Part shown: one piece after another, positions 36,125 through 40,826 of the stretch
Layout of the letters: each line of letters begins with the position of its first letter
How positions within the stretch are numbered: position 1 is the first letter of the stretch
DNA from: a virus
Length of the DNA stretch: 64,000 nucleotides
Direction: 5' to 3' (one strand)
Virus record (IMG/VR): IMGVR_UViG_3300042402_001861
Location: 113,365-177,364 of that record
Notes under the pieces: generated by a model
The model's database searches: none
Seen by the model: the letters and a program-made list of their open reading frames with translations, nothing else
What the model was told of the DNA's origin: nothing
Position numbers and translations under genes: made by a program

Positions 36125-37372
36125 ATGATAAGGACTTTCTCAAGCCTGATCGAAGAGCGGCAACCCGTCATGGAGGCGGTGCAGTCGCAGCATCTTGATC
36201 ACCTTGAGGACTTGATCTTTTTGGATGGAGGGGTAAAGAAAGCCACCGAAATCCTTAAGAATCTGGTGAAGTCCTTGGCTTCAGCCACCCCTACGGCAAA
36301 GATGGTCATCACCACGAAGTGGGATGGGGCACCGGCAATAGTGGCAGGAATCCACCCGGCAACTAAGAAGTTCTTCGTGGCACTCAAGGGAGCAACCCTT
36401 TCTGCCAATCCCAAGATTTGCTATACACAGGCAGACATCAACCGGGAGTATGGAGACAAGGCGGAACTTGCATCCAAACTTTCAGTTTGCCTGAAGAACC
36501 TTCCCTCCGTGTTGCCTGCAAAGGGAATCTATCATGGGGACTTGCTCTTCACAGACAACAAGAAGATCGCCACAATTGACGGTACATCTATGGTGACTTT
36601 CCGACCAAACACGATCATGTATGCCGTTCCTGCTGACAGCCCAATGGGAGTGAAGATAAAGGCTGCAAAGATGGGAATCGTATTCCATACGCAGTACACG
36701 GGCACGGGCAAGGAACTCAAGGATCTGTCCAAGTCTCCCCTTTCCTCGCTGCAAGGGTTCAAGCAGACAACTGCCGTATGGTTCACGGGTGCCACTTTGC
36801 CGTCCCCGCCATCAGGATCAACCTTCCTCACGGCAAGCAACGCCAAGCAGATAGTTGACCTTATTGGATTGATTGCGGCATCGGCAACCCAAGTCAACTC
36901 ATTTCTCAAGATTGTGAAGAAGTCCCACGAAAAGGACATCTACGCAGAACTGATGCCCTTCATCAATTCGGGGGTTCGGGCAGGAATTTCAAAATACGAT
37001 TCCGCCAAGTTGAAGGTGTTCATCGAAGGTAAATACAATGCAGCAATCGCGAAGTTGAAGACACAGACAAAGATAGCAGAGAAACAAAACGACAAGAAGA
37101 AGGCAATTGCCTTCATCGATGCATACGCAGGGCAGTTTGATCAGTTGTTCAAGGTTCACTCGTTGGTGTCGGAAGCAAAGATGGTGGTAATCAGCAAGTT
37201 GTCTGAAGTAAAGACGATAGGAACATACTTGCCAACCGCATCCGGCTTGAAGGCAACCAATCCCGAAGGATTCGTTGCCGTGTGTGGAAAGACTTGTTCA
37301 ACCATCAAGTTGATAGACAGATTGGTGTTCGCAAACGCAAACATGAACATAACCAAGGATTGGAAGAAATGA
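36125..37372 (+). CDS. Nucleotidyltransferase/ligase-fold protein with capsid-targeting-like N-terminus
   Basis: 415 residues. ITTKWDGAPAIVAG (Lys65, motif KxDG) is motif I of covalent nucleotidyltransferases (DNA/RNA ligases, capping enzymes). GIYHGDLLFTD resembles motif III and MGIVFHTQY motif IV. A related family with KxDG is widespread in T4-like cyanophages. The C-terminal 170 residues are helical and unlike known ligases. The start MIRTFSSLIEERQ fits the propeptide pattern (IEE|R). I chose the ATG at 36125 because it coincides with the predicted +1; the ATG at 36119 lies inside the promoter box. It may act on nucleic acid or protein after injection (inference). Confidence 0.75.
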   Translation: MIRTFSSLIEERQPVMEAVQSQHLDHLEDLIFLDGGVKKATEILKNLVKSLASATPTAKMVITTKWDGAPAIVAGIHPATKKFFVALKGATLSANPKICYTQADINREYGDKAELASKLSVCLKNLPSVLPAKGIYHGDLLFTDNKKIATIDGTSMVTFRPNTIMYAVPADSPMGVKIKAAKMGIVFHTQYTGTGKELKDLSKSPLSSLQGFKQTTAVWFTGATLPSPPSGSTFLTASNAKQIVDLIGLIAASATQVNSFLKIVKKSHEKDIYAELMPFINSGVRAGISKYDSAKLKVFIEGKYNAAIAKLKTQTKIAEKQNDKKKAIAFIDAYAGQFDQLFKVHSLVSEAKMVVISKLSEVKTIGTYLPTASGLKATNPEGFVAVCGKTCSTIKLIDRLVFANANMNITKDWKK

Positions 37373-40300
37373 AAACCTTCTCGGAAGCAACAAAGAACTT
37401 CAAGCCAAAGGGCAAGTCCGTAGTAGTGGCTGTTGGGAGGTTCAATCCCCCCACCACAGGGCATGAACTTCTTCTCAAGAAGGTCAAGGAAGTGCAGTCT
37501 GCAAAGGGTGCCGATGCTCATGTCATCTACTACAGTTATTCCAACGATCCTAAGAAGAATCCCCTGACTGCGGCGCAGAAAGCCAAGTATCTCAAGCAAT
37601 TCTTCCCCGGCTACAAGTTCAAGCAGATGCCCAAGCCTTCGGCAAAGGGTTCGGGTGTATATGCCTGTATGCAGGAGTTGAGCGACCAAGGCTACACACA
37701 GGTTTATGTTGTGACCGGTGCCGATCACATGACGGAATACCAACTTGTCAAGAAGTACATCAAGAAGACCCCGACACAGAAGGACGGGTACAACTTCAGC
37801 AAGTACGAGATAATCAGCGCAGGAGAGCGTGATCCCGATTCTGAGGGAGTGGTCGGCATGTCTGCAAGCAAGATGCGTAAGGCCGCATTCGATAAGGACA
37901 TCAAGACCTTCATGACGGGCATTCCTTCAGGAGTTTCCAAGACGGTAGCAAAGCAGATGTACAATGATGTCCGCAAGGGAATGAGCCTAAAGGAAGAGGT
38001 GATCGTAGAGGAAACCAAGACACCCGTGACGATCATCGCTCTCACTTCAAGCATGGAAGAGAGCGAGAAAAGCACAATCGGAAAGATGGAGGAAGCCTGC
38101 AAGAAGTACAAGGTGAACTTCCATCCGATCCGCATCAAGACCGCCACCATCAACATCGCCAAGGCAAGTCCCGACAAGATCACCATAGAGAACTTCGATG
38201 GCGAAGGAAATGATGTCACCATCATCCCGAACCAGACCCTGTGCGTTGTCCGTGGTGGCACGATGAACAGCGAAGTCGGCATTGCCCTCCTCATGTTGTT
38301 GCAGAACAACGGCGTATTCATGGTGAACGAACGAGGCGGCATGGATCTGTGTGCAAACAAGTTGCAGACTGCCATCACGCTAAAGCGACACAACATTCCT
38401 CACCCAAAGACTGCATTCGTCGCAGATGCTGAATCCATTCCCGATGCCCTGAAGCAGATCGGAGGGAAGTTCCCCGTCATCGTCAAAACCCTGACGGGAG
38501 CGGAGGGAATTGGCGTATCGATCATCGAAAGCGAAAAGTCACTTGTGTCCGTGCTGCAAAGCCTGTGGAAGTACGGTGCCGAGATCATTCTTCAGGAATT
38601 CATTCCCGGCTTCACCCATGATGTCCGAAGCATCTGTCTCAACGGCAAGATTTTCGCATCTGCCAAGCGAGACAAGGCCAAGGGAGACTTCAGAACGAAT
38701 ATTGCCCGTGGTTCAAAGGGCGGTTCATTCGAACTATCTGAGGACGAGATCAAGTTGGTGGAAACCGTGGCGAGGGTTTCCAAGTGCTACTATGTCGGAG
38801 TCGATCATGTGGTCGCTGGTGGAAAGCCTTACATCATAGAGATGAATGCGAGCCCCGGAAGCGGAAATGTCTACACTCTGTATGAGGACGGAAAGCCGAC
38901 AAAGGATGTTGATGGCGATGAACTTGTCGAAGAACTCGTCAAGCACCTGTCCAACAAGCAGAATTGGAAGTTGTTCAGTTCCGTCGCGGTGGTCGAACCA
39001 ATAAAGGTCGCAGGCGAGGAATTCTACGGCAAGGTGGATACGGGCAACAGCGGTTACAACTCAATCCATGCCACGGACATTAAGATCAACGAGAAGAACC
39101 ACACAGTCACCTTCAAGTTCAATGGCGAGAAGGAGATGACCAAGCCCATACAGAGCCGTATTCGTCTTCGCCATGGTTCTTCCAAGGAAGAGGCAGTCCG
39201 TCCGACTGTCCTGTTTGATGTTGAATTTAATGGCAGGGAATTCAAGAATGTCAAGTTCAGTCTTGCCGACAGAAGCCACATGAACTACAAGGTTCTTCTT
39301 GGTCTTCGTTTCCTCGTTCAGGCCGGTGTCATGGTCGATCCCAAGGACATGTCGGCTTCGAAGACGAAGATCGATGAGGAGAAACTTGCCATGCAAGGCA
39401 AGGAAATGAAGAGTCACCTTGACGGTCTGATTTCAAAGATCAGGGAAAAGCATGGAAGCACAAATGTGACCTATTCGCAGGCTATGAAGATCGTAGGTGC
39501 GACAGGTGCTGCTCGTCTTGCTGCCCGTGGAATGATTAAGCGTGACAGCGGCAAGAAGGAAAAGGGAGAACTTGGCAAGGAATCCGTGGAGGAATCCAAG
39601 TACACAACCAAGACCGGAAAGGCCGTGTCTCCTGCAAGAGACACGAAGGCCGACTTGCCGAAGAAGTATGTCGCTGGCCTGAGCAAGACGCAGAAGGCAA
39701 AGCGAAAGGCACAATTTGACAAGCGCAAGGACATTCCCGACAGCGATCCCCGTGCATGGAAGAAGTTGCCGGGTGATCCAAAGGAAACCAAGAGAAAGTC
39801 CAAGTACACTCAATTGTTTGCCAAGAAGTTTGGGAAGAAGGTTGAAGAGGCAATCGATCAATTGATGAAGATCGATTCACTCTCCATCCCCATGTCGGAA
39901 AAGGTCGAACGAGTCAGGGAATACCAATCCAAGTTGCAGACGAAGGAAGAAAGAGACATCTGCACGGTCTTTATTGAAGTCGTCAAGAACGAGATGTACG
40001 AACCATATTCCAACATCAAGACAACCTTGGACGAGGATTTCGAGTGGATGATGTACAACAGTACGGATTCAGAGTCCACGGCAAGAATCATTAAGAAGAA
40101 GTTGCAGGAAGTTCTTGAAATCGGAACCAACGAAATCGTCAAGGCGTATTCCAAGATGACTCCGGGGCAGAAGTACTACACCGAGGACAAGGCCAAGGAA
40201 GAGCAGGATGCCCTTTACAAGGAATGGGAAAAGTTGGTCAACATGGGTCCAAAGGAGTTGGAGTCCTTCATCGATTCAGATGAGGGCGAAGAAGCAGGAC

Positions 40301-40554
40301 TTTCCCGCAAGGAGGCTTCCAAAGCAGGAGCCAAGGGCGGAAAGATCAAGTCCGGACGAGACTCGGCCCGTGCCATTGTACGCATGTTGCAGACCAAGAA
40401 GAAGGATTGGACACCCAACGATTGGGAATGGGCACGAAGACAGGTCAATTTCATCACACGCATGAAGGGAGCCCAAGGACCGATGCGTGACGAAAAGGGT
40501 CGCCCAACAAGGAAACTTCTGGCTCTGAAGATTTGGGGCCACAACCCGGAATAA
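37369..40554 (+). CDS. Fusion: NMNAT-like nucleotidyltransferase + RimK-like ATP-grasp + LysX-type aspartyl peptidase
   Basis: 1061 residues from the ATG overlapping the ligase-fold stop. Domain 1 (about 17-205) has GRFNPPTTGH and SASKMR, the HxGH and SxxxxR motifs of cytidylyl/NMN adenylyltransferases. Domain 2 (about 218-535) is a RimK-like ATP-grasp ligase ending in IIEMNASPG. Domain 3 (about 550-660) has KVDTGNSGYNSIHA, RPTVLFDVEF and LADRSHMNYKVLLG of the RimK-associated zinc/aspartyl peptidase family. Residues 680-1061 are Lys-rich, with a phage-type DPRAWKKLPGD and a helical end. MKTFSEAT could be a weak capsid-targeting start. RimK enzymes add Glu-type residues to proteins; the paired peptidase may remove or process them. 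Confidence 0.85.
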   Translation: MKTFSEATKNFKPKGKSVVVAVGRFNPPTTGHELLLKKVKEVQSAKGADAHVIYYSYSNDPKKNPLTAAQKAKYLKQFFPGYKFKQMPKPSAKGSGVYACMQELSDQGYTQVYVVTGADHMTEYQLVKKYIKKTPTQKDGYNFSKYEIISAGERDPDSEGVVGMSASKMRKAAFDKDIKTFMTGIPSGVSKTVAKQMYNDVRKGMSLKEEVIVEETKTPVTIIALTSSMEESEKSTIGKMEEACKKYKVNFHPIRIKTATINIAKASPDKITIENFDGEGNDVTIIPNQTLCVVRGGTMNSEVGIALLMLLQNNGVFMVNERGGMDLCANKLQTAITLKRHNIPHPKTAFVADAESIPDALKQIGGKFPVIVKTLTGAEGIGVSIIESEKSLVSVLQSLWKYGAEIILQEFIPGFTHDVRSICLNGKIFASAKRDKAKGDFRTNIARGSKGGSFELSEDEIKLVETVARVSKCYYVGVDHVVAGGKPYIIEMNASPGSGNVYTLYEDGKPTKDVDGDELVEELVKHLSNKQNWKLFSSVAVVEPIKVAGEEFYGKVDTGNSGYNSIHATDIKINEKNHTVTFKFNGEKEMTKPIQSRIRLRHGSSKEEAVRPTVLFDVEFNGREFKNVKFSLADRSHMNYKVLLGLRFLVQAGVMVDPKDMSASKTKIDEEKLAMQGKEMKSHLDGLISKIREKHGSTNVTYSQAMKIVGATGAARLAARGMIKRDSGKKEKGELGKESVEESKYTTKTGKAVSPARDTKADLPKKYVAGLSKTQKAKRKAQFDKRKDIPDSDPRAWKKLPGDPKETKRKSKYTQLFAKKFGKKVEEAIDQLMKIDSLSIPMSEKVERVREYQSKLQTKEERDICTVFIEVVKNEMYEPYSNIKTTLDEDFEWMMYNSTDSESTARIIKKKLQEVLEIGTNEIVKAYSKMTPGQKYYTEDKAKEEQDALYKEWEKLVNMGPKELESFIDSDEGEEAGLSRKEASKAGAKGGKIKSGRDSARAIVRMLQTKKKDWTPNDWEWARRQVNFITRMKGAQGPMRDEKGRPTRKLLALKIWGHNPE

Positions 40555-40559
40555 TTCAA

Positions 40560-40826
40560 ATGCAAAGATTCAAAAACTACATCTCCGAAGACAAGCCAGC
40601 CGCACATACATCCTTGGAGAAGAAGTCCAAGGCTTCAGGCATCCCTTACCGCTTCCTCAAGCAAGTCTATGACCGTGGAGTGGTCGCATGGAAGGGAGGC
40701 CATAGGCCGGGGGCTGGCCCCGAGCAATGGGGTCTGGCAAGAGTCAACAGTTTCATCGTCGGCGGCAAGACTCGTCATACCGCCGATGCAGACATTTGGA
40801 AAAAGTACAAGGGCAGCAAGCGTTAA
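40560..40826 (+). CDS. Small conserved phage protein with capsid-targeting-like N-terminus
   Basis: 88 residues. MQRFKNYISEDK fits the propeptide pattern (ISE|D). The rest, YRFLKQVYDRGVVAWK, GHRPGAGPEQWGLARVN and RHTADADIWKK, is a compact family I recognise from T4-like marine phages, where it often ends larger internal proteins. It directly follows the large fusion protein. Function unknown. Confidence 0.7.
   Translation: MQRFKNYISEDKPAAHTSLEKKSKASGIPYRFLKQVYDRGVVAWKGGHRPGAGPEQWGLARVNSFIVGGKTRHTADADIWKKYKGSKR

Follow-up and report, generated by a model that had tools for sequence, protein, structure and literature searches.

Why would a virus encode a nucleotidyltransferase, a glutamate ligase, and a protease as a single polypeptide, and in what form would such a polypeptide act? 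The question is raised by one gene in a window of 64,000 nucleotides, comprising bases 113365 to 177364 of the IMG/VR virus record IMGVR_UViG_3300042402_001861 (177,364 bases in total). Here, a single open frame on the plus strand (37369 to 40554; 1,061 codons plus the stop) encodes a 1,061-residue protein made up of an NMNAT-like domain, a RimK ligase, a RimB-type peptidase, and a basic tail. Its ATG at 37369 overlaps the stop codon of the upstream gene as ATGA and matches the start site of homologues; because these two features agree, this start was preferred over a longer GTG start at 37282. We hypothesize, with somewhat more confidence than doubt, that the protein is a prohead-core polyprotein of a T4-like phage that would be cut by a gp21-type protease and injected, thereby delivering a glutamylation enzyme pair. 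What suggests processing of a head polyprotein, and not a single fused enzyme, is the combination of protease sites in the linkers, a polyglutamate (poly-Glu) tract carried by relatives, and the basic tail.

An earlier note on this DNA had read three enzymes in one chain from the motifs GRFNPPTTGH, EMNASPG, and KVDTGN. The frame and all three motifs were located (residues 23 to 32, 491 to 497, and 555 to 560, respectively), and the three folds were confirmed: AlphaFold modeling (with an alignment composed of the window protein and its IMG/VR relatives) followed by Foldseek backs the RimK and NadD-like folds, and the peptidase is identified by its profile matches to PF05618 and structure 9g58. 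The parts of the protein and the neighboring genes described below are all on the plus strand. The first domain (residues ~15 to 205; 37411 to 37983) is an NMNAT/NadD-like nucleotidyltransferase with GRFNPPTTGH and GMSASKMR (residues 163 to 170), corresponding to the (H/T)xGH- and SxTxxR-type motifs of such enzymes, and with a Rossmann-like fold. It matches two PHROG cytidyltransferase families (3.9e-57 and 4.6e-44), and its score with Pfam CTP_transf_like (1.3e-3; 19.4 bits) falls under the cut-off of 21. A sequence-profile search of the PDB with this domain returned nothing significant, and it was structure comparison that identified the fold: Foldseek matched the model to NadD (8aih; 1.4e-5; TM score of 0.60) and CoaD structures were also among the matches. 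The substrate could be a nucleotide other than nicotinamide mononucleotide or nicotinic acid mononucleotide.

Residues 218 to 530 (38020 to 38958) form a RimK-type alpha-L-glutamate ligase, with pre-ATP-grasp and ATP-grasp parts, as indicated by Pfam RimK PF08443 (6.4e-31; 107.9 bits versus a cut-off of 21), a sequence match to a solved RimK structure (2.3e-27), and Foldseek (7qys; 1.6e-9). With the TIGR00768 RimK model, the window protein stays just under the cut-off (139.8 versus 143.4), which the proteins of Pelagibacter phage Mosig and Yersinia phage YerA41 pass. K373, E410, R442, D479, E491, and N493 are near-invariant in an alignment of relatives, and all of these except E410 presumably have metal- or ATP-binding roles.

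The third domain (residues 534 to 660; 38968 to 39348) is a PF05618 retropepsin-like peptidase of the RimB/RloA family (5.7e-10; 39.7 bits versus a cut-off of 27), and its profile matches structure 9g58 at 1.7e-10. The closest models by profile are 9g58, RloA3, and RimB, with scores far below the curated cut-offs of both the RimB equivalog NF052261 (27.8 to 34.6 bits versus 200) and RloA3 (36.6 to 40.1 versus 210). The PF05618 match rules out the label “LysX-type” peptidase, by which the earlier note had called this domain; LysX itself is an ATP-grasp ligase and no peptidase. The same note was right that RimK-like ligases and this peptidase family are partners, as in rimABK and rloABC (PMC11957791, PMC12239564). 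In RloA, K46, R114, and R137 contact poly-Glu, and the largest effects came from R114A and R137A (PMC12239564). These three residues align to K555, R611, and R635 of the window protein and are conserved in 26, 27, and 27 of 27 representatives, respectively; the DTG active site (residues 557 to 559) is kept in all 27. Because catalytic and poly-Glu-contacting residues are conserved, the enzyme parts look active, including those of the window protein.

Could the frame be an assembly artefact that joins separate genes, as the earlier note had allowed? A scan of IMG/VR viral contigs yielded 84 stretches, with the same frame in 79 distinct loci, of which five are identical to the window (100%) and the others have 46 to 64% identity. 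As the same continuous frame recurs in about 75 other contigs from many samples, and as we found nothing in favor of an artefact, we consider its probability negligible. The note's further statement, that no phage protein was known to join these enzymes to an NMNAT-like domain, agrees with the annotated record: a search for this domain order found the fusion in the IMG/VR contigs, and 80% coverage of the protein is reached in none of 50,697 records of annotated phages. RimK followed by RimB, without the NMNAT-like domain, occurs in Mosig and in Yersinia phages YerA41 and GN1; there are 221 Mosig relatives in marine contigs and 547 RimK-RimB relatives overall. Hundreds of cyanophages have the NMNAT-like domain but no RimK, and in Syn9 and S-PM2 it is encoded behind gp41, beside DUF6267-like genes.

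Bacterial genomes were scanned for the RimK-RimB order with two peptide patterns only, so that absence is weak evidence, and the scan gave one good match (L096) and three RimK-only matches, the latter in Phycisphaera/Planctomycetaceae metagenome-assembled genomes (MAGs). The good match is on a contig of an alphaproteobacterial MAG (TMED93), where a Mosig-like RimK-RimB is accompanied by clamp-loader-like and DNA-polymerase-like frames; given these neighbors and the resemblance to Mosig, it is probably a mis-binned pelagiphage fragment. In Mosig itself, a putative ribosomal protein S21 gene (L081, 497 to 706) is located ~5 kb from the RimK-RimB gene, and ribosome-directed functions are possible for both.

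If the protein is packaged, signals for head targeting and processing would be expected. T4 gp21 cleaves after L/I-x-E, and leader residues 4 and 7 function in targeting and residues 8 and 10 in processing (PMC9026906). The capsid-targeting start suspected in the earlier note is canonical in most relatives and degenerate in the window protein, which begins with MKTFSEATKNFKPK (37369 to 37410; F4, F-S-E-A). A hydrophobic or aromatic residue followed by (L/I/M)xE is present in 26 of 34 distinct leaders (1.6 on average and at most 6 after shuffling), and relatives' leaders include MERFATHITE/A, MTKRFADHITE/A, MKNFAQHITE/A, and MKKLSQIITE/A (a slash marks the expected cleavage; GTG start codons are shown as M). 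Linker 1, between the NMNAT-like domain and RimK (residues 207 to 218; 37987 to 38022; LKEEVIVEETKT), contains two (L/I)xE sites; all 27 representatives have (L/I)xE there (12.6 when shuffled), and 19 have (L/I/V/F/M)xEA (1.4 when shuffled). Linker 2, behind the peptidase (residues 661 to 671; 39349 to 39381), contains IDE at residues 668 to 670, with (L/I)xE in 19 of 25 proteins (13.2 when shuffled; P = 0.0085). In the AlphaFold model, the predicted local distance difference test score (pLDDT) drops below 50 at the leader (residues 1 to 14), linker 1 (209 to 218), and linker 2 (653 to 680).

The window phage's genome also contains a gp21-type protease (Peptidase_S77) gene at genome positions 70699 to 71136 (PF03420; 2.0e-37) and a Gp23 capsid gene, and a prohead protease homologue is encoded in the contig of a poly-Glu-bearing relative (L030). 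Independent support comes from a separate lineage, the Mosig-type stand-alone RimK-RimB proteins, whose leaders have F-x-x-(Y/F)-(L/I)-x-E in 73 of 73 cases, with variation at adjoining positions. Syn9 gp184, of the T4-GC190 cytidyltransferase family, likewise starts with MKKFSAFLSEA. Across the whole genome, a loose leader pattern was found 25 times versus 11.8 expected and a strict one 7 times versus 1.2 (shuffle maximum, 8), an excess that is suggestive only. Exact T4-type leaders are also present in the window at 236 to 934 (MKSFIAFISEAQSF, 215 amino acids) and at 40560 to 40826 (MQRFKNYISED, DUF5824). Two phages carry RimK without RimB: in Methylophilales phage Melnitz (L094, 82 to 1131), it has the capsid-targeting-like start TQKFSQFITEE, and in cyanophage S-RIM32 (L095, 3986 to 4864), it is encoded directly behind the protease, scaffold, and gp23 genes.

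Evidence from particles is available for related phages. Virions of S-SM1 contain the cytidylyltransferase T4-GC190 (PMC3037559), and those of S-CREM2 contain a cytidyltransferase (PMC10665884). The RimK-RimB protein of YerA41, a phage whose particles were analyzed by liquid chromatography-tandem mass spectrometry (PMC7354516), carries an annotation as a structural protein.

Based on these patterns, we propose that the N-terminal leader directs the precursor into the prohead core and that the gp21-type protease would then cut at (L/I)xE in the leader as well as in both domain linkers. The resulting pieces, namely, the NMNAT-like enzyme, the RimK-RimB unit, and the basic tail, would remain with the DNA and reach the host along with it. 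In the host, RimK would ligate Glu to the C terminus of one or more host proteins, perhaps S6 by analogy with the RimK precedent (S6/RpsF), and RimB would trim the Glu chains or stimulate their synthesis; the earlier note had put forward host ribosomes or RNA polymerase as possible targets. Translation could thus change ahead of phage gene expression, and the NMNAT part may support the supply of NAD. In the relatives with a poly-Glu run, RimB could itself cut at this run, leaving a new Glu end that RimK could extend.

What is the run itself for? Five or more (5 to 8) consecutive Glu residues follow RimB in 33 of 59 distinct proteins, typically in the form GDEEEEEEL(S/N/A)E and usually with (L/I)xE next. 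In the 507,000 residues translated from these loci, all 39 runs of at least six Glu are behind RimB, with none elsewhere; their codons mix GAA and GAG, and there is only one run of at least six Asp. RimB cleaves stretches of at least about six Glu, internal ones among them, and leaves Asp uncut (PMC11957791), and RloA required eight Glu, leaving six uncut (PMC12239564). We read the tract as reflecting selection tied to the adjoining RimB protease, an acidic spacer being possible. The latter explanation, which concerns the tract alone and is compatible with packaging, holds that the Glu residues merely aid binding to the core or expose the prohead protease site. As the phage's scaffold-like protein is acidic and has many LxE sites and about half of the family lacks the tract, we rate the spacer only a little short of an even chance; the confinement of the Glu runs to one place in mixed codons, the near absence of equivalent Asp runs, and the fact that RimB reads Glu and not Asp count against it.

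The tract also invites two proposals in which glutamylation would begin in the virion. In the first, which we consider improbable, RimB of the poly-Glu relatives would cut its own chain at the encoded run and RimK would extend the exposed end, after which the virion enzyme would poly-glutamylate itself or the gp21-made Glu ends of head proteins, so that chains or a primed enzyme would be injected. In the second, which seems to us a shade more improbable still, RimK-RimB would act within the assembling head, either glutamylating the LxE Glu ends of gp21 products or making free poly-Glu that is stored with the DNA. Cleavage after LxE leaves a C-terminal Glu (PMC9026906), a plausible RimK acceptor, the relatives' tract directly precedes an LxE site, and RimB stimulates poly-Glu synthesis by RimK (PMC11957791). 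However, action in the head would require ATP and glutamate inside the prohead and leaves the NMNAT part unexplained. Also counting against it, we know of no such modification of head proteins.

Returning to a precursor that is packaged, processed, and injected, several observations weigh against it. The window leader, MKTFSEATKNF, lacks (L/I)xE and does not strictly fit the pattern, and the S-RIM32 RimK has no capsid-targeting leader. The LxE motif is short, its enrichment in linker 2 is modest, and the shuffles are blind to kinship. Further, the window protein and its clade lack the poly-Glu run, and shorter tracts in relatives may escape cutting if, as for RloA, eight Glu are needed. Neither an S6 nor an S21 homologue is present in this genome, which excludes both as phage-encoded RimK targets, and the AlphaFold model of the 1,061-residue protein is of modest overall confidence (pLDDT of 61.5). 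Finally, the virion data stem from relatives and not from the window phage, and the authors of the S-CREM2 study pointed out that enzymes expressed at high levels can end up in virions as contaminants (PMC10665884).

The first two of these points, together with the location of the gene near gp41-type helicase and primase genes and away from the head genes, would suit a protein that is never packaged, i.e., an infected-cell enzyme of NAD and Glu-chain metabolism that is expressed beside replication genes and acts on host proteins. We consider such an enzyme unlikely, though deserving of more weight than the two proposals for action in the virion, since the leaders and linker sites exceed chance, stand-alone relatives carry exact leaders, and cytidylyltransferase relatives are present in virions (PMC3037559, PMC10665884).

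The basic tail (residues 672 to 1061; 39382 to 40551) is a modular fourth part of the protein: the ~390 residues from ~660 onward are mostly basic (isoelectric point of 9.6) and include the first half of DUF5824 (764 to 831), DUF3140 (952 to 1043), and DUF6321 (1013 to 1056). Its length and make-up vary among relatives, whereas the NMNAT-RimK-RimB core is constant. DUF5824 is divided between this tail (within 37369 to 40554) and the next gene (40560 to 40826), which encodes its second half behind the canonical capsid-targeting-like leader noted above. In HTVC008M, a DUF5824-like stretch is found inside the cytidyltransferase protein gp130.

On the other side, the ATGA-coupled gene at 36125 to 37372 encodes a DUF6267 protein (415 amino acids, from MIRTFSSLIEER) with a capsid-targeting-like leader of its own and a possible ligase-type nucleotidyltransferase core. 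A DUF6267 gene is immediately upstream of the fusion in 26 of 26 representative relatives. The AlphaFold model (pLDDT of 85.9) has a disordered leader (residues 1 to 22), K65-x-D-G, E381-G, and K395 are invariant, and the best Foldseek matches are DNA ligases at low probability (0.69; E value of 0.086). Of the two claims in the earlier note, the ATGA coupling stands and the ligase fold is weakly backed; from motifs and model, a ligase-type nucleotidyltransferase is plausible.

Parts of this arrangement are already known: bacterial RimB-RimK hybrids in the reverse order (PMC11957791), cytidyltransferases in cyanophage virions, and injected head enzymes of T4. The RimBK hybrid DP2392 of Desulfotalea psychrophila joins RimK and RimB in one chain and cuts poly-glutamylated RpsF (PMC11957791). 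It resembles the phage protein, as does rimABK, in pairing a RimK ligase with a RimB retropepsin, but RimB is N-terminal in DP2392, whereas the phage order is RimK and then RimB, with the NMNAT-like domain before and basic modules after. The stand-alone proteins of Mosig, YerA41, and GN1 have the same order as the fusion (28 to 29% identity over 95 to 96%) but lack the NMNAT domain and the basic tail, and the Mosig type also lacks the poly-Glu tract. RloA/RloC of Pseudomonas aeruginosa include a retropepsin with the same poly-Glu contacts, encoded beside an ATP-grasp protein; unlike the phage fusion, RloA is a separate, secreted protein with a role in osmotic stress.

Among head proteins, the T4 internal proteins and Alt share the leader register (an aromatic residue and (L/I)xE) with most relatives of the window protein, and they share the protease family and, in the case of Alt, enzymatic cargo. 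The putative cargo here differs in combining a Glu ligase/protease with an NMNAT-like part in one multidomain precursor. T4-GC190 (Syn9 gp184, S-PM2 p142) shares a homologous NMNAT-like domain, and the place behind gp41 with DUF6267-like genes, and it has been found in virions; it lacks RimK-RimB, and the S-PM2 version is instead joined to a portion of a DUF6267-like protein. The polyvalent proteins that phages and conjugative elements encode are likewise multidomain enzymes proposed to enter with DNA, and the paper describing them does not mention RimK or aspartyl peptidases (PMC5512222). In the literature searched, we found no fused, apparently processed NMNAT-RimK-RimB precursor, no suggestion of packaged RimK across lineages, and no genome-encoded poly-Glu behind RimB.

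If our hypothesis is true, T4-like phages of freshwater and seawater inject a Glu-ligase/retropepsin pair at infection, and host proteins could be tagged from the first moment, a possible parallel to T4 Alt with another chemistry and perhaps directed at the ribosome. RimB-type proteases would gain a poly-Glu substrate that is encoded in a genome; for RloA, none was found when the periplasmic and extracellular proteins of P. aeruginosa were searched for one (PMC12239564). A self-acting poly-glutamate cassette, if real, would represent a new type of protein modification in virus heads. Further, injection of such a precursor would help explain the presence of cytidyltransferases in cyanophage virions, and the “DUF” genes of the gp41 area would become testable head cargo.
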